Of a stretch of DNA of 64,000 bases, positions 4,316 through 51,078 are shown in pieces; position 1 is the first letter of the stretch; every line of letters starts with the position of its first letter. The notes under the pieces were generated by a model. It ran no database searches and was not told the DNA's origin. It worked only from the letters and a program-made list of their open reading frames with translations. The stretch is from assembly GCF_027580225.2 (NCBI RefSeq), contig NC_073356.2:62001-126000 (forward strand), given 5' to 3'. This DNA is from Misgurnus anguillicaudatus. Lineage: Eukaryota; Chordata; Actinopteri; Cypriniformes; Cobitidae. Made by a program: the position numbers and the translations under genes.

Positions 4316-5705
4316 TGTAGAAAAGTGTTCTGTCAGTTTATTGTGAAGTGTTTACCAGTTTAGTGTCTTAGTCTAGTACTGTTTCAAGTTGTGTGTTTAT
4401 TCTGTCATATTAGTTATCGTGTTTATGTTGTTTTGCTCCCTCGTGGGCCTTTTGTTTTCGGTTCTTTTAAATAAAGTGTTTGTGTTCATCAACCTCTGTT
4501 TGCACTTGGGTTCCTCCTCATATACCTTAACACATACATCTCTTTCAGCCAAGAACTTCTTTAAACTTTTTTAGATTGAGTGAAACTATGCTGAACCCAT
4601 CTCTGACCAAAAAGAAAAATAAATCTCTTTCAGAGCTTCCAAACTGTTAAAACTGATCTTGGATCTGACATTCCCTACTTCCTTTGACCAATCATTCACT
4701 TACTTTGAGCCCTCAGTTGTGAGATAAACAGCGCCCTGTCCTTCACACACACCATTCGTATTTGAATATATATTTACTGGGAATTTTTTTGCTTAATAAA
4801 AATAAAAGAATGAGAGTTGAAACACTTTACCTTTTATTTCACCTATTAAAGTTTTAGAAAAATATTCTGTGGTTGTATGGCCCTGTGGAGCTAAATGAAA
4901 TAGTCACTAATTTGAAAGAATTCAACCACAAACCCTTAACTGTTATGTTTATACATGGCAAATTTTGAAAAGCAACTTCCTAAAACATTGTACAATTAAA
5001 TGGCATATATCATGGTATACTAACTGGCATTTGCAAAAGCAGATCTTCATTGCCAAGCAGAAGTAGCAAAACCAAAATACTCATCTGAACTCACTAAGGA
5101 CATGATATACCCTTTTAAAAACATCATTGTCTGTTTTAAAATCTGAATCTGGTTGTATCAATGTCACTACCAGTGTCACATGAATTTAAAATCTGGTAAA
5201 ACCGGCGTAATTTGCTTTTGATTGCTTATGTCTTAATGTTCAAACCTCGTCCAACCCATGTCCCACCAGCATGAATTCAACATGCAATGTTATACCAAAA
5301 TGCTTAAAGCAACATCCCACAAACCTTGAGCTTCCATAAATATTCTCTTTTTCTAGCTCTGTTTAAAGAGAGACAGGACAGCTCCTGAAACTTCACAAAT
5401 GTTAGACAACTATAAAACCGAACAACAATGAAATCAAGACATATGAAACATAGAAATATGAATGATATAATAAAATATAGAAATATAATGAATGAATAAA
5501 TGAAAATATAATGATAAAAATGATAATAATAAAAATGATAATAAAAATAATATTGAATAATCAAATGAACAATTATATGGATAACTAATGATTATAAAAT
5601 GATTATGTAAATAAATGATTAGGAATAAACTAAAAAACACAATAATAAACACATTCTGAACGTGAGGATCTAAAGTAGGATCCTTCACTGTCATGCAATT
5701 ACATA
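4316..5705. other. AT-rich spacer, no gene supported
   Basis: 4316-4540 is T/G-rich, contains AATAAA at about 4471, and looks like the tail of a dispersed element. 5450-5650 is very AT-rich simple sequence (aataatgataaaa), which explains the hydrophobic Phe/Tyr/Ile-rich minus-strand ORFs there. Nothing else recognised. Confidence 0.5.
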
Positions 5706-6752
5706 AAAACTTTACAATGTGATCAGATGATATCCTGTCACGAAGTTATTTTAAACCTTTACAATGTGATTAGATAGTACCTGTCGTGCATTTATATTAA
5801 ACCTTTACAATGTGATCAGATGTTACCTGTCGTGCAGATACATTAAACCTTTACAATGTGATCAGATGTTACCTGACGTGCAGTTACATCAAACCTTTAC
5901 AATGTGATCAGATGTTACCTGTCATGCAGTTATATTAAGCCTTTACCTGTCATGCAGTTATATTAAACCTTTACAATGTGATCAGATGATATCCTGTCAG
6001 GAAGTTACATTAAACCTTTACAATGTGATCAGTTGTTACCTTTCGTTGCAGTTATATTAAACCTTTACAATGTGATCAGATGATATGCTGTCATGCAGTT
6101 ACATAACATCTTTACAATGTGATCAAATGATATCCTGTCATGCAGCTATAGTAAGCCTTTACAATGTGATCAGATGATATCCTGTCGTGCAGTTATATAA
6201 AACCTTTACAATGTGATGTGATGTTACCTATCATACAGTTTTATTAAACCTTTACAATGTGATCAGATGATATCCTGTCGTGCAGTTATATTAAACCTTT
6301 ACAATTTGATCAGATGTTACCTTACATGCAGTTATATTAAACCTTTACAATTTGATCAGATGATATGCTGTCGTTATATTAAACATTTACAATGTGATGT
6401 GATGTTACCTGTCATGCAGTTATATTAAACATTTACAATGTGATCAGATGTTACCTGTCACACAGTTTTATTAAACCTTTACAATGTGATCAGATGATAT
6501 CCTGTCGTGCAGTTACATTAAATCTTTACAATGTGATCAGTTGTTACCTGTCATGCAGTTATATTAAACCTTTACAATTTCATCAGATGTTACCTTACAT
6601 GCAGTTATATTAAACCATTAAAATTTGATCAGTTGTTACATCTCGTGCAGTTACATTAAACCTTTACAAGGTGATCAGATGTTACCTGTCATGCAGTTAT
6701 ATTAAACCTTTACAATGTGATCAGACGTTACCTGCCATACAGTTTTATTAAA
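5706..6752. repeat. 46/47-bp minisatellite, roughly 22-23 copies
   Basis: The core word TTTACAATGTGATCAGATG recurs at 5711, 5758, 5804, 5850, 5896 and onward with a 46-47 bp step, followed by (A/T)CCTGTC(A/G)TGCAGTTA(T/C)ATTAAACC. One unit near 5937 is shortened. Units diverge by point changes and small indels and abut directly, with no unique spacers. The array stops where the palindromic element begins, and a last partial unit (cctgtcgtgcagtt) resumes just after that element at 21689, so the array was the insertion target. Confidence 0.92.
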
Positions 6753-6758
6753 CCTGTC

Positions 6759-7410
6759 AGAAGAAAATATGATGTACCATGTGTCAAAAATTATGATTTA
6801 TGACCTTGATTTACGACCTAACACCTTATGAGTTGTTTTGCTTCCTGTAATAAAATATTATGGTGGTAATTGATGTTTATACTCCGGAAATTACTCCGGA
6901 AATTACTCCGGAAATGATGTTTATCCAGGTGTCCTATAGTCTCTGTTGTTTCACGCCTCCCATCTCCTGTGTGAGTGTTTAAAGAAATCAGAAGATAGTA
7001 AAAAGATAAGTTAGAATTGTATGCCAGAATGTTTTGCTTTTAAGCATAATGTCTGTGAATAAATCAATACACATGATTAAAGAAATAAGAAGTCAGTAAA
7101 AAAGATAAGTTAGAATTTTGTATGGCAGAATGTTTTGCTTTTAAGCATAATGTTTTTGCATAAATAAATACATATGATTAAAGAAATAAGAAGACATGAT
7201 GAAGAAACAATGTTAAATAAAATAATTGTAATTGTATTTAGGTAGGTTTTTTAAAAGAGGTACCGGTTAGGAGCCCAACCGAACAAGCTGTTGTCTTCCT
7301 GTCTTGAAAGTTGTAATGTAAATCTTTCCTTCCAAGCCAGTCATCGTCGTCTATTCGGGTCACGCCCCAAGACTTCTGATACGTCGGTACAGTTCAATAG
7401 AATAAACGTT
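6759..7410. repeat. Left outer terminal inverted repeat with duplicated ~100-bp block
   Basis: Mirrors about 21070-21688. It contains three ACTCCGGAAATT-type words (6880-6915; partly kept on the right as cctccggagca) and a block of about 100 bp starting at 6981, 7079 and 7180 that includes AGAATGTTTTGCTTTTAAGC twice. The same duplication appears in the right arm, so it predates the palindrome or was copied with it. Confidence 0.85.
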
Positions 7411-7930
7411 TAGGAACTCGGCTAGGCGTTAAGACATATCCTTTCCCTGCAGAATAAGTGTCTGCTCACGCCAAAGGACCTTGCTTGATATTCAAATATT
7501 ACTTCCTTGCAGTCTCTGTCATCTCCCACAAACAAGGTGCCATGGTATTACAAAAAATCTAGATCAATAGATGGAAACTTTACGAGTTCTGCTTGGTGTT
7601 AAGACATTTCCTTTCCCTTCAGACTGTGTCTGCTCACGCCAAAGGTCCTTCCTTGATATTCAAATATTACTTCCATGCAGTCTCTGTCATCTCCCACAAA
7701 CAAGGTGCCATGCTAGTACAAAAAATCTAGATCAATAGATTTTAACTTTAGGATCTCTGCTAGGCGTTAAGACATTTCCTTTCCCTGCAGACTAAGTGTC
7801 TGCTCACGCCAAAGGTCCTCCCCGATACCCAAATACCACCTCCCAGCAGTCTCCGCCATCTCCCACAAACAAGGCGCCATGGCACCACAACAACAATCTA
7901 GATCAATAGATGAAAAGTTTGGGATTTGGT
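7400..7930. repeat. ~170-bp subterminal tandem repeat, left arm
   Basis: Units marked by GCGTTAAGACAT begin at about 7431, 7601 and 7769. A fourth lies just beyond the gypsy insertion (12469), 170 bp from the third once the insertion is removed. Each unit includes CTTTCCCTGCAG, TGTCTGCTCACGCCAAAGG, CATCTCCCACAAACAAGG and TCTAGATCAATAGAT. The right arm has three corresponding units. Subterminal repeats in a DNA element are often transposase or replication-initiator binding sites; here that is only a suggestion. Confidence 0.85.
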
Positions 7931-8109
7931 TGTTGTGTTTAGTCAATAAACACACTAGAGTTTTATGTAATGAACTCACGTGTAGTCTTTTATTATTTGC
8001 ACATCACATGTCTCCAGTTCTTCATCTGATTTCTCTTAGATATCTCTTAGCATATATAACACAGTGTTGCCACCTACAGGACATATCCTGAATTACAACT
8101 ATCACCACA
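7931..8109 (-). repeat. 3' LTR of the gypsy element
   Basis: Plus-strand start TGTTGTGTTTAGTC, end ATCACCACA. It pairs with 12277-12455. On the minus strand it holds the element's 3' end, preceded by a purine-rich tract. Confidence 0.93.
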
Positions 8110-8278
8110 TCTCCCTTTCTTTAAAGCATTAACTGAGAATTAAATTAACAGCATGGTAACAAAAAATGCAATATGAGAATAGTGTGACAGTTATGAAACA
8201 CGGTAGCAACATACCAAATAACAATTTCAAAAAGTAAACACAAGTAAATTCTTTTCAAATTACTTTGATTACGAACAT

Positions 8279-8713
8279 CTACAAATTAAGTCTATCAGGT
8301 TTCTTTATGATACGTGATGATCTTCTTAGTACAGGCAAAGTATCTGTCTGTGCAGAATGATCAGTGTCAGGTGGAGGGAAGGAAGTCTTTGCACTCAATG
8401 TAATTTGTTCTTGTGGCAAGACCTGAATCTCTTCACTCACTTCATCATTCAATTTCTGGGTTGTTTCCTGTGTCTTAAGAAGACTTTTGCGATTTCTCCT
8501 GAAGATCTGTCCACTTTCTGTTCTGACCACATATGACCTTGGACTCACTTCTTCAAGTACCACAGCTTTTCTGTCCCGGTAGTTTGAATCTCCAAATCTC
8601 ACAGTATCATCCTTTGCTAATGGTTTCAATCTTTTGGTTTTCTTGTCGTAGCTTAACTTCTGTCTTTTTTGTAGAGCTTTCAGTTTTGGTTTTATTGTCA
8701 TGCTTTTCATCAT
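8279..8713 (-). pseudogene. Gypsy pol C-terminal segment after an in-frame stop
   Basis: About 144 codons in the same frame as, and immediately downstream of, the integrase ORF, from which it is separated by a single TAA at about 8714-8716. The sequence is basic, rich in Lys/Arg (TIKPKLKALQKRQKLSYDKK), with a segment like the small beta-barrel region downstream of gypsy integrase cores (DTVRFGD...YRDRKAVVLEEVSPRSYVV). It is probably the integrase C-terminal DNA-binding tail. The stop makes the full pol unreadable unless suppressed. Confidence 0.8.
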
Positions 8714-9763
8714 TTATTGTTTTGAGTCAATTCTGTAAGGAAGTGTTGTTCTTATTTTACGACCCATTAAGAGTTCTGCAGGAGATGCACCATGCTCTAG
8801 AGGTGATGCTCGATAACTCAGAAGAGCTAGATATGGATCTGAATTACCTTCTGACGCCTTCTTGAGCAACTGCTTCACGATGTGCACACCTTTTTCTGCC
8901 TTTCCATTAGACTGAGCGTGATGGGGACTCGAAGTCACATGTTTAAAATCATAGGATGTGGCAAAGTCCTGAAACTCTTTGGAATTGTAACATGGACCGT
9001 TATCGCTTACTACAACATGCGGAATGCCGTGCCTCGCAAACTTGGATTTCATGTGCTGTATCACGCATGTGCTTGAGCATTTTGACAGCAGGGCAATTTC
9101 TGGATAATTGGAAAGGTAATCCACCACCAATAGGTAATCTTTCCCATGAAGATGAAATAAATCAGTACCCACTTTCTGCCATGGATGCTTAGGTAAGTCT
9201 GTTGTGATCATAGGTTCTCGTGCCTGTTTGTTCTGATGCTTCAAACATATTTCACATGTGCTGACCATTTTCTCAATATCAGTATTGATTCCGGGCCAGT
9301 AGACGGACTCCCTTGCCCTTCTTTTGCATTTCTCTATTCCTAGATGTCCTTCATGTATCCTAGAAAGCATCTCTTTTCTCAGAACTTCAGGAATCACTAT
9401 CCTCTCTCCTCTCAAGAGAAGGCCTTTCACTTGACTGAGCTCAGCTCTGATTTTGAAGAATTGTGAACAGGAACCTTTAATCCATTCATAGTTCAGATTC
9501 TCACTTACAGTTTGCAGAATTGGATCCTTTTCTGTCTCCTCAGCTATTTGTTTGGACTTTAGATCAGACACCGGAAGCGTTTCAACAATCAGTTTCACAT
9601 GCATGTCTACATCAACTTCTGTGGAACTTTTCTCAGGTGACTGACAGGTTATTGGTGCACGAGATTGTCCTAGCTGACGCACTATGTACTTTCCTGGAGT
9701 GTAAACTAGTTCAAAGTCATATCGTTGCAATCTCATCATTAGACGCTGAATGCGTGGAGACAT
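8714..9763 (-). pseudogene. Gypsy integrase (pol, 3' part)
   Basis: The integrase inserts retroelement cDNA into the chromosome. The start region carries the end of the RNase H/connection segment (LQRYDFELVYTPGKYIV). An HHCC zinc-binding domain follows (H-x3-H near EGHLGIEKC; CEIC near residue 150), then a core with the three acidic residues in TDLFHL, VSDNGP and GKAEKG, in the usual order and spacing. It overlaps the upstream RT ORF in another frame (9739-9763), marking a frameshift, and ends at an in-frame stop. The catalytic residues themselves appear conserved. Confidence 0.9.
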
Positions 9764-10776
9764 TCAGATTTTTTTCGAATGATTGCAATTAAAGGCTTGT
9801 GTTCAGTTTCTGCTGTGAATGATGGTAAGCCATATACATAATCATGAAATCTTTCAAATCCAAAAACGAGTCCTAGACACTCTTTCTCAATTTGAGCATA
9901 TCTGCATTCAGATTGTGTCATTGTTCTGGATGCATAGGCTACAGGTTTCCATCCTTGAACATCTTCCTGGAGTAGAACTGCGCCTAATCCATCTTTTGAT
10001 GCATCCGTAGAGATCTTGATTTTCTTGGAAGCATCAAAGTAGGTGAGAACTGGTTCTGTTGTCAATGTTGACTTGAGCAGTTTCCATTCTTGCTCGTGTT
10101 TGCTTGTCCAGTTGAACTCATTTTTGTGATTCAGTAGTTCCCTGAGACTTGCTGTTTTTGCAGAGAGATTAGGAATGAATTTACCGATGAAATTTATCAT
10201 TCCCATTATTCTCATCAGTCCTTTCTTGTCCACAGGGCTTGGCATTTCCAGGATTGCCTGTATTTTGGATTTGTCAGGTTCAACGCCATGTCCAGACAAC
10301 TTGTCACCTAGGAAAGTAATTTCAGTCACACAAAACTGACATTTGTCTTTGTTTAGTTTAAGTCCATACTTTTGTATTCTTTGAAAGAGTTTTAAAAATC
10401 TCTCATTGTGCTCCTGCACTGAAGATCCCCAGACAATTATGTCATCAACATATGCACACACTCCATCCAGCCCTTCTATGATATGCTCCATAGCACGATT
10501 AAATATTTTGGAGGCTGAGATTATGCCAAAAGGCAGCCACTGGAACGAATATTGTCCGAATGGTGTGTTGAACCTGCAGTATTTGGTGCTTTCTTCATGA
10601 AGTTTCAACTGCCATAATCCCTGAGAAGCATCAAGCTTGCTGAAATACTGTGCACCAGCCATTTCACTTGTTATCTCTTCACGCTTTGGAATCTGGTAAT
10701 GCTCTCTTTTAATGTTTGCATTCAAATCTTGAGGATCCATGCATACTCTCAGATCACCATTTTTTTTTTCTGACAC
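9739..10776 (-). pseudogene. Gypsy reverse transcriptase and RNase H (pol, middle part)
   Basis: Copies element RNA into DNA and removes the RNA strand. Visible RT motifs are the LDASQGLWQLKL block, QWLPFGIISASKIF, and the catalytic YVDDIIVWG. These are followed by the RNase H start ISTDASKDGLGAVLLQ and CRYAQIEKECLGLVF. The 5' junction with gag-protease lies in a run of about ten T (plus strand) near 10760-10770, where the frame changes; homopolymer slippage is the simplest explanation. The 3' junction to integrase is a second frameshift near 9765. Confidence 0.92.
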
Positions 10777-12244
10777 ATACCATTGAGTTTACCCAGTCTG
10801 TGGGTTCCTCCACTTTTTTAATTACACCAAGAGTTGTCATTTTGTTAAGCTCCTTTTTTAGTTTATCTTTTAGTGGTGCTGAGACTCTTCTTGGAGCATG
10901 TATTACAGGCTTGGCATCTTCTTTGAGCTGTATTTTGTAAGTAAATGGCAGAGCTCCCAGTCCTTTGAAAACATCATCAAATCTGTGTACAATTTCAGTT
11001 GCTGTTTCCTGTTGTGCCACTGTTACCTTTTGACTGTTAATACAGTACACTCGTTTAACCAATCCTAACTCCTCACAGGCTTTGTCACCTAGGAGAGATT
11101 GATGATCAGCTGGGACTACAACAAAGAGAAGGTGATGAGTTGTATTCTTGATGCATATTTTGAGTCTGCATACACCTTGAGTCTTTATGTCTTGTCCATT
11201 GTATGCTTTAAGTGACACTGGACTTTTTCGAATATGGGGCTTGATTTTCATCTGCTTTATGTCATTTATACTTATGAGATTTGCCTTAGCTCCTGTATCA
11301 AGTTTTAGTGCCACACTTGTTCCATTAACTTGCAGAGATACAATCCATTTATCATTGGGAACACTATTCATGTCAGCATCACTCTCATGTTTTTGTTGAA
11401 TTCTTTCTGTATCATCATTGATCATGCCCACAAAGAAAGTGTCTGATAATTCTGTTTCTTCCACAGCATCTACATTTTTCGTTGACTTTGTTTTTGTGAA
11501 ACACTGTTTAGCAAAATGGTTCATGCCTTTACATTTTCCACACTGCTTCCCATATGCTGGACATTGCTTGGGTTGATGCTTTAAACCACATCTCTTGCAA
11601 TTGAAAGCACCTGTGCTTACTTTTGGTGTAGCTTTTAGACTTTGCCTTTTCATTTTATGAGTTACAGCACCCACTACTGGACAGCCAGCATCTGCAGCAT
11701 CCTTCTCACTGAAAGTTTTAACGTGCAAAGAAGCAAGTTCACTTGCATGACAAATCTTAACAACACCTTCTAATGTCAGCTCTGTTTCTCTGAGCAGTCT
11801 TTCTCTCACTTTCTTTTCATGAACTCCAAAGACAATTTGATCTCTGATCATTGATTCATTCAAGATACCGAAGTTGCATGTCTTCGCCTTTAACTTCAAA
11901 TCAGTTAGAAAAGAGTCAAAACTTTCTCCCTGTTGCTGAATACGTGAGCGGAACACATACCTCTCGTACGTTTCATTTTTCTTGGGTGAACAGTGATCGT
12001 CAAATTTCCTTATGACATCATCAAATTTTTGTCCGTCCGCTTCCTCCGCGAATGTGAAAGTATTGTATACTTCTATCGCTTGAGGTCCAGCAACCGTAAG
12101 GAACAACGCTATTTTCCGTGCATCCGGCTTGTTGTCCAGTCCGACTGCTTGCATGTATAGCATGAATTGCTGCTTGAATGCCCGCCAGCTGCTGTCAACA
12201 TTCCCGGTAAGTTTTAGGGACTCCGGTGGTTTTAAGACATCCAT
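10754..12244 (-). CDS. Gypsy gag-protease ORF with start of pol
   Basis: 496 codons starting at an ATG about 30 bp downstream of the 5' LTR. The N-terminal half is a gag-like capsid region (SWRAFKQQFMLYM, KIALFLTVAG, YERYVFRSRIQQ, GESFDSFLTDLKLKAKTCNF). Two zinc knuckles follow (CKRCGLKHQPKQCP and CGKCKGMNHFAKQC), then an aspartic protease with LDTGAKANLIS. The ORF ends at the entry to RT because of the frameshift noted for pol. Gag and pol appear originally to share one frame with no programmed shift. This ORF is open throughout and could still be translated. Confidence 0.9.
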   Translation of the reverse strand: MDVLKPPESLKLTGNVDSSWRAFKQQFMLYMQAVGLDNKPDARKIALFLTVAGPQAIEVYNTFTFAEEADGQKFDDVIRKFDDHCSPKKNETYERYVFRSRIQQQGESFDSFLTDLKLKAKTCNFGILNESMIRDQIVFGVHEKKVRERLLRETELTLEGVVKICHASELASLHVKTFSEKDAADAGCPVVGAVTHKMKRQSLKATPKVSTGAFNCKRCGLKHQPKQCPAYGKQCGKCKGMNHFAKQCFTKTKSTKNVDAVEETELSDTFFVGMINDDTERIQQKHESDADMNSVPNDKWIVSLQVNGTSVALKLDTGAKANLISINDIKQMKIKPHIRKSPVSLKAYNGQDIKTQGVCRLKICIKNTTHHLLFVVVPADHQSLLGDKACEELGLVKRVYCINSQKVTVAQQETATEIVHRFDDVFKGLGALPFTYKIQLKEDAKPVIHAPRRVSAPLKDKLKKELNKMTTLGVIKKVEEPTDWVNSMVCVRKKKW

Positions 12245-12276
12245 TTTGCAGGTTTAGTGTAGCACTCCTGGTACCA

Positions 12277-12455
12277 TGTTGTGTTTAATCAATAAACACA
12301 CTAGAGTTTTATGTAATGAACTCACGTGTAGTCTTTTATTATTTGCACGTCACATGTCTCCAGTTCTTCATCTGATTTCTCTTAGATATCTCTTAGCATA
12401 TATAACACAGTGTTGCCACCTACAGGACATATCCTGAATTACAACTATTACCACA
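12277..12455 (-). repeat. 5' LTR of the gypsy element
   Basis: 179 bp, same boundaries as the 3' LTR. It is immediately followed, reading the minus strand, by TGGTACCAGGAGTG, a tRNA 3'-end complement (possibly leucine; not verified), which fixes the LTR edge. Confidence 0.93.
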
Positions 12456-13146
12456 TCGGTTAGGTGTTGAGACATTTCCTTTCCCTGCAGACTTAGTGTC
12501 TACTCAAGCCAAAAGGTCCTTCCTTGATATTTGAATTCATCCTTTCTTAAACACACACCTCCCTTGGGGGGGAAACAGATCCCCCGAATTGTAGTGTTTA
12601 AATGTAATTCAATCAAAAAGTAGATTTAAGCATAGCATTGCCCTAGATGTCCACACAAACAAAAAGTCGTATACATATCGTTATAAGTATGCGCGGGTGA
12701 AATGTTATGTCATTTGTCTTATACTGTTTAAAATGTTAATATATTAAAAGTATGATTTAAAATAAAATTATTCTTTTAACAGTGATGAGTAATTATACTT
12801 TTAACTACAGGCTTGTCTAGTTTGTACTTTTTCCCATCGGTTTTCATGAAGATATATTCTTTACATTATAATTTTATAAGTGTCTATAATTTACTAGAGA
12901 AGCTTATATTTATAGTTGATAATCTTATTTGTAAAAGGTTTAAAAATAAATAGCCAAATAAAATATAGGGTGGGGTTTGTGTCATGTAAATATGTGGGGT
13001 ATGGCCTCCTGAGTCTGGCAAGCACCGCCTCGGTAGTTCAAAAGGTTGGATTCTCATTTGGGCCCTTACACCAGTAACTGATTTTCGCGAGGACATCTCT
13101 TTCTCTCAGTTATATTAAAGAGGCCTTGTTTTATTTTTCTCAAACA
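12456..13146 (+). other. Left arm: last 170-bp unit, AT-rich stretch and gene A 5' region
   Basis: Mirrors about 20011-20700 in the right arm. 12461-12540 is the innermost subterminal repeat unit. 12560-12980 is AT-rich. 12960-13146 is the leader upstream of the gene A start, with TATA-like words (ctatattttattt region on the mirrored strand) and a conserved stretch (CACCGCCTCGGTAGTTCAAA). The strong conservation between arms up to the ATG suggests promoter/leader sequence, but no element can be named. Confidence 0.55.
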
Positions 13147-14682
13147 ATGGATTCAGGACTCGCTGGTAAGTTATTTTGTTTGTTTTATATGTTTTATTTA
13201 TCATGTTTGATATACCAAGTTATCTTCATTTGTAAAAACAGTCTTATTTTGTTTTTATTTTTAACATTTAACAGGCTTTTAAATGTGTATGTATACGATA
13301 CAGGAATTTTTAAAACGCTACCTCCCTACCAACATTTTGACCAGATCGACCAGCTTTGTAAGTGTTTTAAGTATATTTTCAAGTAAACTTCCTGAATGAT
13401 CACATGAGCGCATTTATGTATGTATATTTTATATTACACGTTTATTCCAAATTAGTGAATTCTACTTTGATAAATACTGAAGAGCAAAGCGACACCAGGA
13501 CCAGCGATCTGCAAGGTAATACTGTGTTTTTTAATTATACATTCAGATTTTCTGAAAAACGTGATACTTACATTTTTACACTTTTATACCCACAGTTAAC
13601 AACCCCGCAACAAATGAGGGCTCCCAAGGCCCCAATGGGGGCCGCGAACCGCAAGGCGACTATATTATTTGATCTTTACATCTCTTTAATGTGTATTATT
13701 GACTGTTACATGTGTCTTAATTCTTTTTGAAAAAACTTTTCTTTCTGTTTTATACATGTAGATGCTGCATTACTAGTCACACAACCAGGATTTGTACCAC
13801 AGAAACCCTCTACAAAATCTTCAAGACTTAGTCTTAGTCGGAAACGTAAGCAGGCCCGTTCTATTACCCTTGATAAAAGGGCATGCCCGGACCATACACT
13901 AGTCTCTGATGCACAACCTCTGGATACTACCACAGATTTCATTAAAACAGTTGGTAAGTGTGATTTATATGGCTAAATATTTGATTTTTAAATACTGTGG
14001 TGTTGTAGTATACTAATCTTACTGTATTTAAACAGATTTCTATACAGAAAACCTGTTAGGAGCTGGAGATGTCACAAATTCATGGTCTGCAGCGTTGGCA
14101 AGGGCCTCAGAAGCTAACGGTGATGCAATAGTACCGGTAGTTAATACCGTACTTCCATCGTCTTTGGACTCGCAGACATCTGCGGCGGTTAATCTGCCAA
14201 CTGTGGTTGGTGACGGTGTTGAGGATGAATCTTCTGTGATCTTTGAAACATCTCCACCCACAAACCAGGAACACTTCAACAATGAGTTGTTGCAGGAATT
14301 GACAGCGCAAGTGAGAAGACTGACTGAAGGCATCGCTGTCATAATTTCAAGGTGTGCAGATCAAGACGTATTGCTGAGAAGACTGACTGAAGGCATCGCT
14401 GCCATAATTTCGAGGTCTACAGCTCAAGATGCATTGCTGAGAAAACAGACTGAAGGCATCGCAGCCATAATTTCGTGGTCTAAAGATCAAGAGGTATTGA
14501 CCAGACTTATATTTGAAGCTCACCAGAAGACTTCTGAAGAACAAAACTTGGTGACCAGAGTGCTGCTTGATCGATTGGTGGACATTGAAAAAGCCCAAAG
14601 AAAGGAATTCGACCTACAGGAAAGTACGGTAATTCTACTTCAACAAGTTAAAGATGCTGTTTCATGCAATAATGGTTTATAG
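13147..14682 (+). CDS. Gene A (left copy): six-exon gene, unknown family, repeat-bearing coiled-coil-like C-terminus
   Basis: Proposed exons: 13147-13165, 13304-13357, 13456-13515, 13596-13655, 13762-13953, 14036-14682. All five introns are phase 1, have AG acceptors and GT donors (exon 4 has GC: CAAG|GCGACT), and the joined frame is open for about 343 codons. Exons 2, 3 and 4 are 54, 60 and 60 nt; exon 5 is 192 nt. Exon 5 has a basic patch (SLSRKRKQAR) resembling a nuclear-localisation signal. Exon 6 ends in three tandem 21-residue repeats (LTEGIAAIISRSTAQDALLR type) in a heptad-like Leu/Ile pattern, likely an oligomerising coiled coil. I do not recognise the family. Start chosen because the right arm conserves it and its splice donor. 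Confidence 0.7.
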
Positions 14683-14689
14683 TTGAAAT

Positions 14690-14900
14690 AAGTGTTGCTG
14701 TTGCTGGGTTTTATTCTACTATTTTGCGAAGCTGTTTTAAATGTGCTTTTAAATATGTTTTGATTATTTTGGTGTTGCTGGGTTTTTTCTACTATTTTGC
14801 GAAGCTGTTTTAAATGTGTTTTTAAATATGTATTTGGTTATTTTGGTGATGCTGGTTTATAGTTGAAATACGTGTTGTTGCAGAGGTTTTCTACTATTTT
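14690..14900 (+). repeat. ~80-bp tandem repeat after gene A, left arm
   Basis: The phrase CTACTATTTTGCGAAGCTG followed by TTTTAAATGTG(C/T)TTTTAAATATG recurs at about 14718 and 14800, with a degenerate third copy. The right arm has the same block three times (16080-16300). It lies in the presumed 3' untranslated region of gene A. Confidence 0.8.
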
Positions 14901-15090
14901 GTGATACCGGTTTAATTGCGATATTTTTTTTTTGATTGCTAGTTTTATTACGGTTAAGTGTAATTTAAGTGTTTTTTTCTTTTTGTTTGGCTGTATCGAC
15001 ATTGGCTAACGTTGATTTGTGGTGCTATTTTGGGTATAATCAGAGAAAATATCTGTGTAATCCTGGAGAAGTTCTAAATATTTTTTGAAA

Positions 15091-15250
15091 ATGGCTGGTA
15101 AAAGAGTGCATTCAGATGATGATTTACATAGCTGTCAAGAAATACCTACTGTAAGGGCATGAGACTGAGGCTGAAATGTTTGCTGCCGCACAAGACCAAT
15201 TACTTGAAAGGGTAAACGAAATGATTCGGTCATATCCACATCAGATTTGA
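15091..15250 (+). pseudogene. Gene B, truncated left-arm copy
   Basis: Begins MAGKRVHSDDDLHSCQEIPT at 15091 and matches the right-arm gene B reading the opposite way. Compared with the right copy it lacks 5 bp (left GTAAGGGCATGAG, right GTAAGGGCTAGGCATGAG), which breaks the frame after about 23 codons. Homology ends at about 15249, where the palindrome arm stops. Confidence 0.8.
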
Positions 15251-15827
15251 GACTGCTGCCTTTTAGACTGATATTAATGTAGGAATTCTCACCTCCTATC
15301 TGTCTGGAGAATGAAACCATTTCCGACAGAATATTTTGAACAAATATAGTGTACGCTGCCAAATCTGTGGTTATGATCTCGCGCAAATTTAGATTTCTGT
15401 GGATTTCTAGACCATTAAAATAGGGTCTCGGGACTATTGTGTAATCACTTACTGTCCCTCCATCACGCACTAGCGTGTCCACGTCACTCTGACTTAAACC
15501 CGTAAGGGTGTCTGTCGTGTTAGAATTATCGTTAGGATTTACTACGCCATAACCTGTTTGTAACAAATTTGTTTCAAATCTTTGTTCATATGACCGAATC
15601 ATTTCATTTTATCTTTCACGTATTTGTTCGTATGTTAGGTCTACCCTCGCAGGCACAGGTTCTAAAATCTGATGTGGATATGACCGAATCATTTCGTTTA
15701 CCCTTTCAAGTAATTGGTCTTGTGCGGCAGCAAACATTTCAGCCTCAGTCTCATGCCTAGCCCTTACAGTAGGTATTTCTTGACAGCTATGTAAATCATC
15801 ATCCGAATGCACTCTTTTACCAGCCAT
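15250..15827 (-). pseudogene. Gene B: unknown protein crossing the palindrome centre, 3' end lost
   Basis: Starts at ATG 15827 inside the right arm and runs through the unique centre (15663-15250). The N-terminal ~75 residues are charged (HSDDDLHS, ETEAEMFAAAQDQLLERVNE). A TAA at about 15606 splits the frame, in a stretch that nearly duplicates an upstream one (NEMIRSY occurs twice), so the frame may have broken during a local duplication. The downstream part (155-residue ORF start at 15602) contains TLTGLSQSDVDTLVRDGG, PYFNGLEIHRNLNLREIITT and GGENSYINISLKGSSL, an ordered-looking domain I cannot assign. At 15250 it runs into the inverted left arm, so the true C-terminus is missing. Virus-like structural or replication functions are possible but unproven. 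Confidence 0.65.
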
Positions 15828-15834
15828 TTTCAAA

Positions 15835-16313
15835 AAATATTTAGAACTTCTCCAGGATTACACAGATATTTTCTCTGATTATACCCAAAATAGCATTACA
15901 AATTAACGTTAGCCAACGTCGATACAGCCAAACAAAAAGAAAAAAACACCCAAACTACACCCAACCGCAACAAAACCAGCAATCCCAAAAAAAAAAAATA
16001 TCGCAATTAAACCGGTATCACAAAACAGCAGAAAACCTCCGCAACAACACGTAATTCAACTATAAACCAGCATCACCAAAATAACCAAATACATATTTAA
16101 AAACACATTTAAAACAGCTTCGCAAAATAGTAGAAAAAACCCTGCAACACCAAAATAACCAAATACATATTTAAAAACACATTTAAAACAGCTTCGCAAA
16201 ATAGTAGAAAAAACCAAGCAACACCAAAATAATCAAAACATATTTAAAAGCACATTTAAAACAGCTTCGTAAAATAGTAGAATAAAACCCAGCAACAACA
16301 ACACTTATTTCAA
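15835..16313 (-). other. Right arm: spacer between gene B and gene A with ~80-bp tandem repeats
   Basis: Reverse complement of 14683-15085. 16080-16300 holds three copies of a unit with TTTAAAACAGCTTCGCAAAA. The two divergent starts of gene B and convergent ends of gene A are mirror-symmetric around the centre. Confidence 0.8.
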
Positions 16314-16792
16314 CTATAAACCATTATTGCGTGAAACAGCATCTTTAACTTGTTGAAGTAGAATTACCGTACTTTCCTGTAGGTCGAATTCCTTTCTTTG
16401 GGCTTTTTCAATGTCCACCAATCGATCAAGCAGCACTCTGTTCACCAAGTTTTGTTCTTCAGAAGTCTTCTGGTGAGCTTCAAATATAAGTCTGGTCAAT
16501 ACCTCTTGATCTTTAGACCACGAAATTATGGCTGCGATGCCTTCAGTCTGTTTTCTCAGCAATGCATCTTGAGCTGTAGACCTCGAAATTATGGCAGCGA
16601 TGCCTTCAGTCAGTCTTCTCACTTGCGCTGTCAATTCCTGCAACAACTCATTGTTGAAATGTTCCTGGTTTGTAGGTAGAGATGTTTCAAAAATCACAGA
16701 AGACCCATCCTCAACACCGGCACCAACCACACCCGGCAGACCAACCGCCACAGACGTCCGCGAGTCCAAAGACGATGGCAGTACGGTATTAA

Positions 16793-18432
16793 AGGGCCAT
16801 TTCACCCATAGGAACATTAATCTTTATGGAAAGTGAGTCATATTTGTAGTCAAAATGTAACATAAATGTAGAATTTTGTGCCTATTTGACAGAGAAAAGA
16901 CAAAATGTGACTTTAGAGCACATTTGTATGAAAAACTACAACTCCCACTATGCACCACAATGCACAGCTCTGCAAGCCACTCCCATTAATCGGAACACGG
17001 CTCAGACATGCTATTATGTACATAAATGCCACGTTAGTAAAACAAAGAAAATAGCCACCACCACTGTGTCTGACTGACACCAATCATGATTTACTTTTAA
17101 ACGTGATGTTACATTGTGTTACACACAATAACACTCTGGCCTGGTGTGTAGCAAAGTCTTATTCAAACAGTAACGTGCAGTTTTAGATCCGCGGTACAAA
17201 TGTCTTTTCAAGTAGTTAAAAAAGGGTATGCATTTTAAATGTTTATTTAGTTTTACCAATTTTCTTTTTGTCTCTTGTTTACTGTAATTACATTTGTGTT
17301 ATTATTGGCCTCACTGCTTTCACAATATAGACATATAAAACACCGCTCAGATATGCTATTGTGTACATAAATGCCACGTTAGTATAACAAAGAAAATATA
17401 AACACTTACGTTAGACGTTCGTTTATCCCTGCATCCTCCACACAAACGCGTCCCCTGCATAATATCTCCACAGACAAGCTGCCTCAGCTCTTGGAGCTTG
17501 TGCTCGTAAACCGAAACACGTCTTTGATATAAGCACGCGACCAGAAACATTCACAAAACAAACGTTCATATCCTTATCTGATCCAGAAATGTTAAACCGA
17601 AAGCAAACGGCGCGAGTCCGTCCAAGCTTATATACTCCGCAGCGCGTCTGCTCGTAAACCGAAACATGTCCGTGAAATAAACGTTCCAAACGCGCGCAAA
17701 GTTCCTCTCTTGCATAGAAACCTTCACCAAACAATCGCCCATATCCTTATCTGATGCAGAAATGTAATAAAGCAAGCATACAGCGGGAATACAGGCAGTT
17801 GTCTGTCCAAGCTTCTCTGCGCAGCAGAGGCCGATGGTTTCTGCGTCTTCACCGGGCTCCTCTACCCAGCCAACGCCCAGGCTCCGGCCTACTCCTCGGG
17901 CTTCTGTTCCTACATCTGCCTCAGCTCTTTGCAGTATTGTGGCTCATAAAGGTGCAATGAACAGCGGATTAGAGCATCACGCTTGTAAAATCACCCTCTT
18001 CCATGTAATATTGATTAACTTCCACTGTTATTGTAACATGAATTCGGCTCGCTCCACAACTTCTGTTTAGCTTAGCTTAGCATAAAGATGGCGGCTGATC
18101 GTTTTTTTTCGGTCTGTGTTCGTATATTTTCGTAAGTCCCACCCACTTGTCTGTAATTGGTCTGAAGCGCGAGTGGGTCCCACCCATAGCCCCCACCTTG
18201 GAAAAATGAGGAATGAGTGTCTGTAGTCTTTCACACTCAATAGAGATACAGGATTTCCTTCTTTCAATGACGCAAAATGACGATTTTTACATCATTGAAA
18301 GAAGGAAGTGCCTCACTGAACTCAGTATTTCTCCCCTCTCAGGGGAAACTGAGGGAATGGTGCACGACCATTCAAAAACATGACTGGGGTTCTAACGGTA
18401 CAAAGCTTAATGCAAATGGGTGAAGTTTCCCT
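16793..18432. mobile_element. 1.64-kb nonautonomous TTAA (piggyBac-like) element
   Basis: Flanked by TTAA at 16789-16792 and 18433-18436. Ends AGGGCCATTTCACCCA and TGGGTGAAGTTTCCCT are inverted repeats (three mismatches). The insertion site in the left arm is intact (GTAGTTAATACC), proving insertion into gene A exon 6 after arm duplication. No transposase ORF. Inside are a ~45-bp direct repeat (TACATAAATGCCACGTTAGT at 17018 and about 17363) and a degenerate ~170-bp duplication at 17455-17810 (GCTCGTAAACCGAAACA). Confidence 0.9.
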
Positions 18433-18743
18433 TTAACTACCGGTACTATTGCATCACCGTTAGCTTCTGAGGCCCTTGCCCACGCTGCAGACCATGAATT
18501 TGTGACATCTCCAGCTCCTAACAGGTTTTCTGTATAGAAATCTGTTTAAATACAGTAAGATTAGTATACTACAACACCACAGTATTTAAAAATCGAATAT
18601 TTAGCCATATAAATCACACTTACCAACTGTTTTAATGAAATCTGTGGTAGTATCCAGAGGTTGTGCATCAGAGACTAGTGTATGGTCCGGGCATGCCCTT
18701 TTATCAAGGGTAATAGAACGGGCCTGCTTACGTTTCCGACTAA

Positions 18744-19425
18744 AGTACTATTCGGACGGGATTAGTTTTACATAGGGAGGTGGGGTAAAGCAAGTTTTTA
18801 TCAGAGCTTCTCGGTGATTTTAGTCCAGTCCGAATGCTCTATGTCAGTAATCATTACGGACAATGTCAGTAAAGTTTACGGCGTCTTTTACCTTCTGTGA
18901 AAAGGTCCGGAGAAATTACCTCAGGTAATACTAATCCAGTGCGAATAGACCAGCTGTAAATATCCACGTAAATCGCGTCATTTCCTTTCAATTTGCGGGT
19001 TTCTTTTAAATATAGAAGCGCTTAAAGAAGCATTTACTTGCGTTCTAGACGGGAAACAAGTCAGTGGCAGGTCAGTTTCTGAATAAAACACGACACAAAC
19101 TTTAAAAAATAAGTCAAATTCACTTCTCAGATTCGCGGAACTGTTTACGAAACTGACGTTCTCCCCAAACTGAAATTAATCACAGTGTTTCGCGTTTTCC
19201 TTGTCTGTGTCATGTTGTTTGCACATCTGATATCTGGAAGCAAGGTAACGTGCACGTGAAGACGAGAGGTGACGCGCTGCGCAAACGAGTTACCCCTCCC
19301 ACTTCTGAATGTTTTACTGAGATTTCTAATCCCGTCCGAATTGAAAATTAATATTACCGATGTTCTGTGGTAAAATTACATTACGCCATCTACTCCTGTA
19401 AAACGAATCCCGTCCGAATAGGGTT
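18744..19425. mobile_element. 0.68-kb nonautonomous PIF-Harbinger-like element
   Basis: Flanked by TAA at 18741-18743 and 19426-19428, the TWA-type duplication expected of PIF-Harbinger. Ends AGTACTATTCGGACGGGATT and AATCCCGTCCGAATAGGGTT are inverted. The uninterrupted sequence is visible in left-arm exon 5 (CGACTAAGACTAAG). No transposase. Confidence 0.88.
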
Positions 19426-20639
19426 TAAGACTAAGTCTTGAAGATTTTGTAGAAGTTTTCTGTGGTGCAAATCCTGGTTGTGTGACTAGTAATGCAGCAT
19501 CTACATGTATAAAACAGAAAGAAAAGTTTTTTCAAAAAGAATTAAGACACATGTAACAGTCAATAATACACATTAAAGAGATGTAAAGATCAAATAATAT
19601 AGTCACCTTGCAGTTCGCAGCCCCCATTAAAGCCTTGAGAACCCTCATTTATTGCGGGGTTATTAACTATGGGTATAAAAGTGTAAAAATGTAAGTATCA
19701 CGTTTTTCAGAAAATCTGAATGTATAATTAAAAAACACAGTATTACCTTGCAGATCGCTGGTCCTAGTGTCGCTTTGCTCTTCAATATTTATCAAAGTAG
19801 AATTCACTAATTTGGAATAAACGTGTAATATAAAATATACATACATAAATGCGCTCATATGATCATTCAGGAAATTTACTGCCTGTTAAATGTTAAAAAT
19901 AAAAACAAAATAAGACTGTTTTTACAAATGAAGATAACTTGGTATATCAAACATGATAAATAAAACATATAAAACAAACAAAATAACTTACCAGCGAGTC
20001 CTGAATCCATTGTTTGAGAAAAATAAAACAAGGCCTCTTTAATATAACTGAGAGAAAGAGATGTCCTCGCGAAAATCAGTTACTGGTGTAAGGGCCCAAA
20101 TGAGAATCCAACCTTTTGAACTACCGAGGCGGTGCTTGCCAGACTCAGGAGGCCATACCCCACATATTTACATGACACAAACCCCACCCTATATTTTATT
20201 TGGCTATTTATTTTTAAACCTTTTACAAATAAGATTATCAACTATAAATATAAGCTTCTCTAGTAAATTATAGACACTTATAAAATTATAATGTAAAGAA
20301 TATATCTTCATGAAAACCGATGGGAAAAAGTACAAACTAGACAAGCCTGTAGTTAAAAGTATAATTACTCATCACTGTTAAAAGAATAATTTTATTTTAA
20401 ATCATACTTTTAATATATTAACATTTTAAACAGTATAAGACAAATGACATAACATTTCGCCCACGCATGCTTGTAACGATGTGTATAGCCTGCGACTTTT
20501 TATTTGTGTAGACATCTGGGGCAGTGCTATGCTTAAATCTACTTTTTAATTGAATTACATTTAAACACTACAATTCAAAAGATCTGTTTTCCCCCAAAAA
20601 AGGTGTGTGTTTAAGAAAGGGTGAATTCAAATATCAAGC

Positions 20640-21070
20640 AAGGACCTTTTGGCTTGAGTAGACACTAAGTCTGCAGGGGAAAGGAAATGTCTTAACACCT
20701 AACCGAGTTCCTAAACTTTTCATCTATTGATCTAGATTATTGTAATACCATGGCACCTTGTTTGTGGGAGATGACAGAGACTGCTAGGAAGTAATATTTG
20801 AATATCAAGGAAGACCCTTTGGCGTGAGCAGACACTTAGTCTGCAGGGAAAGGAAATGTCTTAACGCCTAGCAGAGCTCGTAAAGTTACCATCTATTGAT
20901 CTAGATTATTGTAATACCATGGCACCTTGTTTGTGGGAGATGACTGAGACTGCAAGGAAGTAATATTTGAATATCAAGGAAGACCCTTTGGCGTGAGCAG
21001 ACACTTAGTCTGCAGGGAAAGGAAATGTCTTAACGCCTAGCCGAGTTCCTAAACGTTTATTCTATTGAAC
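20640..21070. repeat. ~170-bp subterminal tandem repeat, right arm
   Basis: Three units marked by GGAAATGTCTTAAC at 20685, 20853 and 21022 (168-169 bp steps), reverse complements of the left-arm units. One unit fewer than the left arm. Confidence 0.85.
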
Positions 21071-21688
21071 TGTACCGACGTATCAGAAGTCTTGGGGAGT
21101 GACCCAGTTAGACGACGATGACTGGCTTGGAAGGAAAGATTTACATTACAACTTTCAAGACAGGAAGACAACAGCTTATTCAATTGAGCTCCTAACCGGT
21201 ACCTCTTTTAAAAAAACCTACCTAAATACAATTACAATTATTTTATTTAACATTGTTTCTTCATCAGGTCTTCTTATTTCTTTAATCATATGTATTGATT
21301 TATGCACAGACATTATGCTTAAAAGCAAAACATTCTGGCATACAAAATTCTAACTTATCTTTTTTACTGACTTCTTATTTCTTTAATCATGTGTATTGAT
21401 TTATTCACAGACATTATGCTTAAAAGCAAAACATTCTGGCATACAATTCTAACTTATCTTTTTACTATCTTCTGATTTCTTTAAACACACAGGAGAGGGG
21501 AGGCGTGAAACAACAGAGACTACACGACACCCGGACAAACATCACCTCCGGAGCAACCTCCGGAGCACAAACATCAATCACCACCATAATACCCCACTAC
21601 AGGAAGCAAAACAACTCACAAGGTGCAAGGTCGCAAATCAAGGCCACAAATCATAATTTTTGACACATGGTACATCATATTTTCTTCT
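21071..21688. repeat. Right outer terminal inverted repeat
   Basis: Reverse complement of about 6759-7400, with scattered substitutions but a perfect terminal 28 bp or more. Includes the duplicated AGCAAAACATTCTGGCATAC block. Confidence 0.88.
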
Positions 21689-21694
21689 CCTGTC

Positions 21695-22190: not shown

Positions 22191-23754
22191 TTTTTGTGAT
22201 CAAAACTTTTATTATTTTTCAAATATAACAAAATAATACAGACATACAAAATTAAATAGTCAAAATAATATAAAGGGAGGGGGGAGCAACAGACACAATA
22301 TTTCACAGTTTAAAGTCAGAGTGAAAAGTAAAAAATTTAAGAAATAAAACAAATAATGCACATAATTAAACATCTTGGTGATTACAGGACCATTACATTG
22401 TTTTCATATGATCCAATAGGAAGAGATACAGTTCCAGGAATTAATTGTAGAAGGTTTTGCCTTGTTACGCCGAGCAATTGTACATTCACTCGTTGCTATT
22501 TGGAGAAGATTCTGAACCCAAAATTTTTCTTTACACATGTAAGGGGTAAACCAGTTCTGTATTATAGTTTTTTTGGCAGAGGTAAAGCCAGCAAAAGCTT
22601 TTTTTAGCCAGAATCATCATTGAGAAGACACAGACCTGGGTTAGGAATAAGGTCAAATCCTAATAAAAGGGACAAAGTGGAGTTTACATAAGTCCATAGA
22701 CTGGAAACAACTGGACACTCCCAGAACATATGGAGACAAGTGCCTGCAACTGCAGTGCCACATATATGACAGTCATACGTCGGTTGTAGCTTCATTCTGT
22801 ACCTATTAAAGGGAGTGATATATGCTCTATGAATAGATTTGAAGTGAATGAGACGATGTGCTAGATTTTTAGATGTTAGACTAAGATTGGACCATACCCT
22901 CTCCCAGTCAACAGTAATATTATAGTTAGACAATTCACGATTCCAAATAGACTTAATAGAGAGAGGTTTTGCACAGTGATCATTGAGTTTATTATATATA
23001 ATCGATACGGATGGCGGACCAGAAGATGGGGCAATCAAGTTCCACATAGGATGAGGGGAAATGCTTGATCCCCATGGAACTCCATATGTTTTCACAGCGG
23101 ATCGTAGTTGAAAAAAAAACAAAGTATGAGGATGCTGGTAAACAGAACTTAGTTCTCAAGTCCTGAAGTGAACATAGGCCCTTGCTGTCATATAGATGCC
23201 CAATTGTGTTTATGCCGAGTGCAGACCATGAGGGTTGCACAAATGGACAGTTCCCCCGTAAAAAGTTAAAATTGTGCCATAAGGGTGTCTTGTCACAGAA
23301 TTTAATAGGTTTCCCTAGCAGACGTTTCGAACTCTTTTCCAGATCCTGATAGAATTTGCAACAATAGGACCAAACTTGTACTTATCTGCTTTTTTCCCTG
23401 TCCCAGTAAATAAAATATTCTCTAATCTATGTGGTTTAACTTCATCAGACTTAATTACTCTCCATGACACTTTGGATTGAGGATTTATCCAATTATGAAG
23501 AGCCCTGAGCTGGAACGACCAATAATATAGTTCAAAATTTGGAACCGCCAGTCCCCCTAAAAATATAGGATGTTGTAATGTGGCGAGTTTAATTCTAGGG
23601 TTTCTGCCATTCCAAATGAAACCAGATATTGTAGATTTGATCTGTTTAAAGTAATTTAAAGGGGGAGAAAGTGGCAACATAAAGAACAAGAAATTAAGTC
23701 GGTGTAGTAGATTCATTTTAACCGTAGAAATTCTACCTTGGAGAGAGATTTTAA

Positions 23755-26447: not shown

Positions 26448-28177
26448 TAAGAGCATTCCATCTTTGGATATCATTTTTAATCTTACTTAGCATATTATTG
26501 AAGTTATCTCTGGCTATCTTATGAATATTTTTATATATAGTTATACCCAGATATGTAAACGAATCCTTAATAGGAATAAATGGGGGGGTGGAAGAGACTA
26601 TTTTAAAATTATTAATTGGAAGTAGGGCAGATTTAGTCCAATTTATCTTATAGCTAAATACAGGATAATATCGTCAGCATATAATGAAATAATGTGATTG
26701 TGGTCATAAATTTTAATTGGTACTGCTTTGGATTTCCTAATAGCTTGTGCTAGTGGTTCAAGGGATAGACAAAACAATAAAAGAAAGAGTGGGCATCCCT
26801 GCCGTGTTCCTCGTTGTAGAGGGAAGGAGGGAGAGATAACGTTTCCTGTCAAAACTGAAGCAGCAGGTGAATTATAAAGAGTTTTGATCAGTGAAATAAA
26901 GTATTTGCCAAAGCCAAAACTTTGTAGAACAGCCCACATATAGTTCCATTCCAGCCTGTCAAAGGCTTTTTCTGCATCAAGTGAGAAAACTGCTCAAGGA
27001 TTGGTATGAGAATCTGCAAAGTCCAAATGTAGAAGTCGACGCATATTGTCTGCGGCATGACGTCCCCTGATAAAACCTGTTTGGTCCTCACTGATTAAGG
27101 AATGAATTACTTTGTCCATACGAGAAGCAGAAACTTTAGCATATATCTTCAGATCACAAGGGATAAGTGATATAGGTCTACAGCTGGAGCAATCTAAAGG
27201 GTCTTTATTTGTAAAATATCTGTAAAATTCTGCTTTTGCAATTTTTGTAGTGCTTCAATTTTGTTTTCTATCTGTGTAAGCTGATAAGTTTTAGCTTTGG
27301 CAAGAGGAAAATGAAATACAAAACCCCCGTATGGCACATTTAGTGGTTTCCCATTGAGAATCCACACCACATTGCATATTAATGTCAAGAAATTCCTTTA
27401 TGTGATCTTTCAATGAATTTATAAATGCCTGATTATTTAGCAGTGATGTGTTGAGGGGCCTTTGTCTTAATACCAGAAAGGTGAACTTTACATAAAACAG
27501 CTGAGTGATCTGAGAGTAAAATTGGTAATATAACTATGGAGGGATCGGATGTAACTAAGGTTGGGCTAAGAAATATATAGCCTATCCTAGAGAAAGTCTT
27601 GTGTCTATTTGAAAAGAAAGTGAAATCCTTAAGTGTAGGATTCTGAATTCGCCAAAGATCAATTATATTTAAGTCTCTAATGAATCTATTCAACAGTTTA
27701 GAAGATGAATTTGCCATTGTATCCGAGAGAAATTTGTTTAGCGTGGGATTTAAGACAGCATTAAAGTCACCTCCCACCACTAAAGGGCAGTCAATCTGTT
27801 CAAGTAGGATATTGAAAATATTTGCAAATAAATTTTTATCAGTCTCGTTTGGGCAATAAATGGAAACCAATGCTAATCTGTCATTGTGTATATTACAACG
27901 GATAAAAACAAATCTACCCTCGTTGTCATTCCCAATGTGTTCAATAGTTAAATTGAGTTTTCTGTTGACTAATATAAGTACCCCTTTAGTTTTATTAAGG
28001 GCGCAGGAGGAAGCAACCAATTTGTAATGTTTGTTTTGAAGCGCGTCACATCGCACTGTTTTAAATGTGTCTCCTGTATAAGGGCACCTGATACCGCATT
28101 GCGATGTAGATATTCAAGTACTTGACAGCGGAGTTTAGGCCATTCACATTTAGTGATAAGATATTTAAAGTCTCCAT

Positions 28178-28639
28178 TGTATATTTATAAAGCTGGAAAT
28201 GTACGTAGTTGGCAAGAAACTATTTTTATTTCCAAGTAACACAGGCATATTGACAGGTGTTCCAAGTGACAGTTTGTTTGAAAAAAATGTCCTTTTCACA
28301 GTATATAGACGAAATAAAGGCATTAGTGTCTGTTGCCAGGGGTGTAACCAAACATGTAAGAAACAAGAAAAAAATAAAATAATAACAGTTATAATAGTAA
28401 CTATATACAACAAACAGAGCAGACCGCACAGTAATACACATTTAAACATGTAGGTCTGCCGAAAAACAAAACAAATATTGAAGCGTGACCGGTCAACTTC
28501 AATGCAAGCCATAACCCCACGCAGGCCCACTGAGCCAAACATCTTTATCAATTATCAAACATACTCTTCAAAACCCCGATAATATCATCGGTCTTACCAG
28601 TCAATGGGTTATTGCGCGTAGGATCATTAAAGTGAGAGA
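28178..28639 (-). other. Spacer between L1 ORF1 and ORF2
   Basis: About 460 bp, AT-rich. The ORFs on both strands are short and hydrophobic, with no domain. In place it corresponds to an inter-ORF region of a LINE. Confidence 0.6.
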
Positions 28640-29675: not shown

Positions 29676-29744
29676 GACGTGTTTGGTAAAGGTTAGTTCG
29701 AAATTTACTGACAGGATTAAAGTAAATTTGGCAAAGTGAGCAGA

Positions 29745-37800: not shown

Positions 37801-37927
37801 ACCAAATATGTTACAGTCAAACTTACTTCCTGTCGGCCATTTTGAATTATATTGAACACCTACTTTTTCGAACTCCTCCTAGAGCGCTTGTTTGACTGGC
37901 TTGATTTTTGGTACGCATCATCTAGAG

Positions 37928-51068: not shown

Positions 51069-51078
51069 TAGATCGGCC

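Follow-up and report, generated by a model that had tools for sequence, protein, structure and literature searches.

The 64,000-nt window of Misgurnus anguillicaudatus DNA analyzed here (NC_073356.2; all positions follow the numbering of this window, the whole stretch under study) contains a 14.9-kb palindromic element at 6759-21688. It consists of two long inverted arms around a small unpaired loop, with identical termini and a single 6-bp duplication around the whole, and three later insertions interrupt it, each in one arm. A predicted gene (gene A) and the start of a second one (gene B) occur in both arms. Gene B reads out of the right arm across the loop, and breaks off at the mirror point.

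Boundaries and target site

Both termini, read inward, carry the 20-mer AGAAGAAAATATGATGTACC, the first six bases of which (AGAAGA) form a doubled triplet, (AGA)2. When up to three mismatches are allowed, this 20-mer is found at two sites in the 64 kb, 6759-6778 on the plus strand and 21669-21688 on the minus strand, both of them exact (shuffled sequence gives a mean of 0.02 matches). The original prediction, made from the DNA letters, had described ends that are identical when reverse complemented, which is, therefore, confirmed. The 20-mer has no exact match in viral contigs. Its one match in a prokaryote collection, in a groundwater Dojkabacteria contig, was taken as chance.

The hexamer CCTGTC flanks the element on both sides (6753-6758 and 21689-21694), as had also been proposed, and the earlier coordinates thus took in the duplication. 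The left copy stands at the end of a 46-bp minisatellite (5688-6755), which constitutes the left flank; its unit includes CCTGTCATGCAGTTATATTAAACC, and its consensus reads CCTGTC followed by ATGCAGTT. The right flank, CCTGTCGTGCAGTT, carries on a minisatellite unit in register, so that the observed flanks are those predicted by insertion into a minisatellite array. As CCTGTC is part of the minisatellite unit, the 6-bp duplication is weaker evidence than it would be at a unique site: because the 6-mer lies inside a 46-bp unit, its chance agreement on the two sides is estimated to be closer to 1 in 46 than to 1 in 4,096. Insertion of the element as a single unit with a 6-bp duplication, another claim of the original prediction, is supported by the presence of CCTGTC on both sides, less strongly so at a site, the minisatellite at 5688-6755, that holds the same 6-mer.

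Mirror arms and loop

Inverted matches extend inward from both ends, with BLAST E-values down to 0.0. The outermost pairing, between 6759-7924 and approximately 20641-21688, is found in several registers due to tandem repeats. Further inward, 12456-13276 pairs with 19881-20706, 13382-13836 with 19426-19880, 13837-14144 with 18433-18740, and 14145-15261 with 15651-16788. The main in-register blocks are 89.5-99.4% identical (BLAST), and the five aligned arm blocks show 115 differences over 3,244 columns (96.5% identity), a count that excludes gap columns, every insert, and two stretches of tandem repeats (7396-7930 and 20707-21064). The mirror point is marked by the 13-mer CCACATCAGATTT at 15236, with its complement at 15665. 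Between the arms, the unpaired loop (15249-15664) measures 416 bp, very close to the centre of about 414 bp first described. With about 7.7 of the 14.9 kb mirrored, blocks at the above identities, and three single-arm inserts, the description of a 'near-perfect' mirror running through 'almost the whole element' was overstated.

The left arm lies on the plus strand, in two parts. The outer one (6759-7930) starts with the AGAAGA terminus, contains 101-bp and 168-bp subterminal tandem repeats, and ends with TTGGT, one copy of the duplication made by a gypsy-type insert; the inner one (12456-15248) begins with the other copy, TCGGT, and ends at the mirror point CCACATCAGATTT. The right arm, on the minus strand, is split into three. 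Its inner part (15665-16792) includes the gene B start as well as the larger share of exon 6 of gene A, and ends with a TTAA duplication. The middle part (18433-18743), bordered by the TTAA duplication first and a TAA duplication last, contains the rest of exon 5 and the start of exon 6, and the outer part (19426-21688), with the TAA duplication first, carries exons 1, 3, and 4 and part of exon 5. Without its three inserts, the element is about 8.1 kb long, with a left arm of 3,965 bp, a right arm of about 3,695 bp (by subtraction of coordinates, one duplication copy per insert being omitted), and the loop of 416 bp. No tRNA or Rfam match at gathering score was found in the window.

Insertions confined to one arm

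The three stretches without a mirror partner look like transposons that entered one arm each and are younger than the palindrome. In the left arm, a gypsy-type long terminal repeat (LTR) retrotransposon of 4,525 bp (7931-12455, minus strand) has 179-bp LTRs with three differences, and is bordered by the 5-bp duplication TTGGT/TCGGT. Its protease, reverse transcriptase, RNase H, and integrase domains are recognized by Pfam, and the reverse transcriptase and integrase domains of the interval 6753-21694 are this insert's own. The right arm contains an element of 1,640 bp (16793-18432; ends GGGCCATTTCACCC and GGGTGAAGTTTCCC) between two TTAA copies, the single open reading frame (ORF) tested giving no Pfam match, and another of about 682 bp (18744-19425; ends ACTATTCGGACGGGATT and AATCCCGTCCGAATAG) between two TAA copies. 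Each of these two interrupts a site that is intact in the left arm.

Palindromes are a known source of sequencing trouble, and the symmetry could have been created in assembly, or by an inverted duplication that followed insertion. Clusters of mismatches of the same type, such as those described below for the two arms, can indeed be sequencing error, and a systematic G-to-A error is described for capillary traces (PMC2873906). Nevertheless, each arm has its own insertions and duplications, as well as its own indels and substitutions, which a mirrored read would repeat. The arms, therefore, existed as separate sequences, and not as one sequence assembled twice. Had the inverted duplication followed insertion, a single 6-bp duplication would not surround both ends. 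The artefact was disfavored on account of the three one-arm insertions, each with its own duplication, and this pair of explanations is considered very improbable.

Predicted genes of the arms and loop

Genes A and B point to the centre in both arms. The left copy of gene A is predicted to encode 343 amino acids (13147-14682, plus strand) in six exons (13147-13165, 13304-13357, 13456-13515, 13596-13655, 13762-13953, and 14036-14682), separated by five introns, all in phase 1; the splice sites of this prediction were picked by eye. Of the five left-arm donors, the one of exon 4 is GC, where the right arm has GT. The C-terminal part contains a 63-bp (21-aa) repeat, and was judged by eye to be a coiled coil. 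The right copy is damaged: a 105-bp stretch around exon 2 (13277-13381 in the left arm) has no partner, and exons 5 and 6 are interrupted by the TAA and the TTAA insert, respectively.

Gene B starts with MAGKRVHSDDDL in both arms. The right copy (15249-15827, minus strand) extends from MAGKRVHSDDDL across the loop as far as the mirror point, over 193 codons with one in-frame stop. The left copy is the mirror image of the gene B start (15091-15248, plus strand), and its frame is disrupted, as it lacks 5 bp that the right copy has. Arms carrying whole spliced genes had been announced by the original prediction; this is supported for the predicted multi-exon gene A, found in both arms with its right copy damaged, and both arms contain the start of gene B. 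The minus strand of the loop continues gene B: between the stop on the loop side and the mirror point, 120 codons are open in the same frame as the start in the right arm; an 18-nt motif is repeated there 90 bp apart, also in frame. Owing to this asymmetry, the right half of the element looks parental, and the left half copied.

The search for protein families relied on 15 partly overlapping pieces of the arms and loop, selected from a much longer list of ORFs and compared with Pfam. None of them gave a match above the family cut-off, the best sub-threshold one being to a GAT domain (E 0.0029, 18.2 bits for a cut-off of 31). The absence of Polinton core genes that had been stated earlier is, thus, upheld for the pieces searched. 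Compared with the sequences of solved structures (PDB), genes A and B gave best E-values of 0.18 and 2, with no convincing family match, and neither has a relative in viral contigs. Gene A has one weak match in PHROGs, of unknown function (E 0.048). For gene B, a structure was modelled by AlphaFold without relatives, at a predicted local distance difference test (pLDDT) score of 43, and a Foldseek viral search returned nothing at E <= 0.001; the model being poor, this missing match says little. Gene B may, in our impression, come from a protein-primed polymerase.

Origin of the palindrome

The best reading of this structure is that the element is an integrated snap-back derivative (a one-end inverted duplication) of a larger protein-primed mobile DNA with a Maverick-type integrase. 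Its probability is put at roughly 0.45. A snap-back genome was among the possibilities raised initially. It is favored by the palindrome with its loop and identical termini, by the single duplication around the whole, by the asymmetric loop, and by the cutting of gene B at the mirror point: a snap-back would leave just such a gene, begun in one arm, carried on in the loop, and broken off at the mirror point.

Such a derivative would arise in several steps. A strand would start at one end of the parent element, and grow inward through gene A into gene B. About 4 kb in, its 3' end would fold back by about 0.4 kb, anneal to the strand itself, and copy it back to the terminus, leaving the loop. 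Since each half has the parent's end, enzymes provided in trans could replicate and integrate the resulting molecule, which would decay after insertion. In protein-primed strand-displacement replication, each end is an origin, so that the product of a snap-back has two functional ends. The repetition of the end motif in Mavericks is thought to permit jumping back at protein-primed initiation (PMC8097293), and (AGA)2 would serve such a start.

Several observations weigh against this origin. Genes for pPolB, integrase, ATPase, protease, and capsid were not detected in the 15 pieces, in a test that relied on Pfam and in which gene B may be an unrecognized part of a core gene. The arms measure 3.7-4.0 kb, while the terminal inverted repeats (TIRs) of intact vertebrate Mavericks are 46-1,447 bp long; gene A is predicted with five introns, while the core ORFs of intact Mavericks are intronless; and (AGA)2 is outside the three motif types reported for vertebrate Mavericks (all from PMC8097293). 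In a limited check of the literature on Mavericks with palindromes, covering titles and the beginnings of abstracts among the papers listed, no palindromic Maverick of this kind was seen. As no core gene was found, the arms are longer, introns are predicted, and the end motif is unreported there, membership in the Mavericks is not claimed; what is proposed, tentatively, is an element that works like one.

Two other origins would start from the long arms themselves. The element could belong to a foldback-type family of non-autonomous transposons, the arms being standard inverted repeats mobilized by a transposase that makes 6-bp duplications, and gene A a gene of the family. Long arms with 101-bp and 168-bp subterminal tandem arrays around a small unpaired middle would fit such a family, and the lack of a detected polymerase or integrase in the arms or loop, among the 15 pieces, fits as well. 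Nevertheless, gene B breaks off at the mirror point, with the loop occupied by its continuation, as though a gene of the parent had been broken. The Foldback and Galileo families also make duplications of other lengths (7-9 bp). A foldback origin is possible but rather unlikely. Alternatively, a long-TIR element could have lost a large unique centre by internal deletion, leaving the arms and a scrap of gene B with no snap-back. The same anatomy would be expected if the ends of the parent were already 4-kb repeats, but both repeats would need to contain the gene B start, and would be far above the maximum of 1,447 bp given for Mavericks (PMC8097293). This makes internal deletion improbable.

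If the snap-back origin is true, the locus provides chromosomal evidence for a Maverick-like element replicating as free linear DNA from its ends, because such replication would yield palindromic derivatives that an integrase could capture.

Clustered A-to-G differences between the arms

The 115 differences in the five arm blocks include 98 transitions, and these are clustered by type. Adjacent transitions are of the same type in 69 cases, for 33.6 in shuffles (p 2e-4), and the longest run counts 21. Taken per block, same-type clustering gives p values of 2e-4, 0.18, 1.0, and 6e-4, the fifth block having too few transitions; the block with p 1.0 is uninformative, as 16 of its 17 transitions are of one type, which hides clustering from shuffling. 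When patches are defined as same-type clusters of at least four members with steps of at most 60 bp, eight are found, in which 78 of 175 candidate A (45%) are changed. The changed A follows a G in 4 cases, for 16.6 expected (p 5e-5 by stratified permutation; 1.3e-5 by Fisher's test), and precedes a G in 16, for 11.4 expected (p 0.022). A deficit of G upstream and an excess downstream constitute the published ADAR motif (PMC3197674). Most transitions (80 of 98) are left A/right G (42) or left C/right T (38), which places them on the minus strand if they are A-to-G changes, and the other 18 on the plus strand.

The direction of change can be read at two places. In one 168-bp unit of the left arm (L3; changes at about 7818-7886), 24 substitutions distinguish it from the majority of units, and 15 of them are T-to-C. 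At 8 of these 15 sites every other aligned unit has T, and at the rest T is found in 3 or 4 of 6 units, or in 3 of 4. T-to-C changes number one in unit L1 and none in L2, R1, and R2, and two partial units that are divergent near their end have 9 and 7. Together with the exon-4 donor of gene A (GC in the left arm, GT in the right), this unit indicates that the plus strand changed from T to C, equivalent to A-to-G on the minus strand. The opposite reading, C-to-T, is also biased in context (CC excess, p 0.0024; TC deficit, p 5e-4), but deamination of this type was rejected as the main process, since both polarized places give T-to-C. Error-prone polymerase eta would fit the tendency of changed A to follow A or T; with 45% of the A changed within patches, the changes seem too dense for it. 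Clustered sequencing error could still be the source of the A/G patches; a systematic G-to-A error is described for capillary traces (PMC2873906).

Whatever its origin, the palindrome may record ADAR-type A-to-G hypermutation fixed in germline DNA, although this is doubtful at present. A hairpin transcript of the palindrome might have been edited and then written back into DNA, or one DNA strand might have been edited in RNA:DNA hybrids. In telomeric RNA:DNA hybrids, ADAR1p110 can edit both strands where there are A-C mismatches, and not where complementarity is complete (PMC7955049). For the palindrome, there is no visible route for edited RNA back into DNA. No report of such an A-to-G pattern in genomic inverted repeats was seen among the literature matches listed, in their titles and the beginnings of their abstracts. 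If real, the patches would mean that an enzyme normally studied on RNA has left its footprint in germline DNA, and if the snap-back origin holds too, the locus would also be an integrated defective genome of a Maverick-like virus.

Control repeats and other features of the window

The controls consisted of 14 other repeat pairs of the window, 13 of them with at least eight transitions; several share sequence and are not independent. Eleven of the 13 show no clustering of transitions (p 0.21 or more). The direct pair 35235-35914/38976-39696 has clustered transitions (p 4e-4), with the four types balanced. It is included in a region (30491-42294) densely packed with repeats, both direct and inverted, that are about 77-94% alike.

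A second close inverted repeat, a foldback-like insert 2.6 kb from the element (24283-24883/25757-26342), has 49 of its 52 transitions in the two classes that would be A-to-G on the minus strand (31 and 18; p 2e-4). A or T precedes the changed A in 41 cases, for 35.3 expected (p 0.0056), while G before (2 for 4.5 expected, p 0.097) and G after (7 for 5.6) are not significant. Among the small inverted pairs, several lean the same way: three at about 0.75-1.8 kb (CT 6 and GA 2; CT 4; CT 4), 23787/29812 (CT 4), and 31342/32429 (AG 8, CT 1, GA 2). The lean is absent from 31342/33791 and from 24902/26341 (CT 1, GA 2, TC 1), the latter belonging to a pair related to the second inverted repeat (24902-25015/26341-26451). 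The one-strand signature of the second inverted repeat hints that close inverted repeats of this genome may be subject to a general process.

This repeat interrupts ORFs on the minus strand (22604-29777) that resemble, by eye, a long interspersed nuclear element (LINE), with endonuclease and reverse transcriptase parts. An edited transcript might here have undergone reverse transcription by the LINE itself. Further ORFs on the minus strand, at 45182-46864 and 48518-51083, also appear by eye to encode LINE reverse transcriptase and endonuclease. A 137-bp tandem repeat, rich in CCAGCA, occupies 1418-1773.

Comparison with known systems

Vertebrate Mavericks (Polintons) make 6-bp duplications, and their end motifs are mostly (AGT)2 or (AG)3, but also (AC)3A; intact ones have TIRs of 46-1,447 bp, a length of 12.7-24.6 kb, intronless core ORFs, and modules pointing to the centre (PMC8097293). 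The element resembles them in its 6-bp duplication (here at a minisatellite with the same 6-mer), in its inverted ends, the first six bases of which are a repeated short motif starting with AG, and in genes directed to the centre. The Polinton-like ends that had been suggested find support in this duplication and in the resemblance of (AGA)2 to (AGT)2 and (AG)3. Unlike Mavericks, it has no detected core gene, its arms reach 3.7-4.0 kb, it measures about 8.1 kb without inserts, introns are predicted in gene A (which is not shown to be a core gene), and its motif is (AGA)2.

The patches recall RNA ultra-editing by ADAR, both in the context of the changed A, which G precedes too rarely and follows too often, and in dense clusters where inverted repeats can pair (PMC3197674). 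The difference is that the changes are here in DNA.

Foldback transposons such as FB and Galileo share very long inverted repeats with internal tandem repeats, but the duplication here is of 6 bp instead of 7-9 bp, gene B breaks off at the mirror point, and no transposase was found by Pfam in the 15 pieces of the arms and loop.

The incomplete particles of adenovirus and the hairpin forms of yeast killer plasmids are palindromic defective genomes of protein-primed replicons. Like the element, they consist of two inverted copies of one end with a small loop in between, and both ends keep the origin; those palindromes are extrachromosomal, whereas the element is chromosomal.

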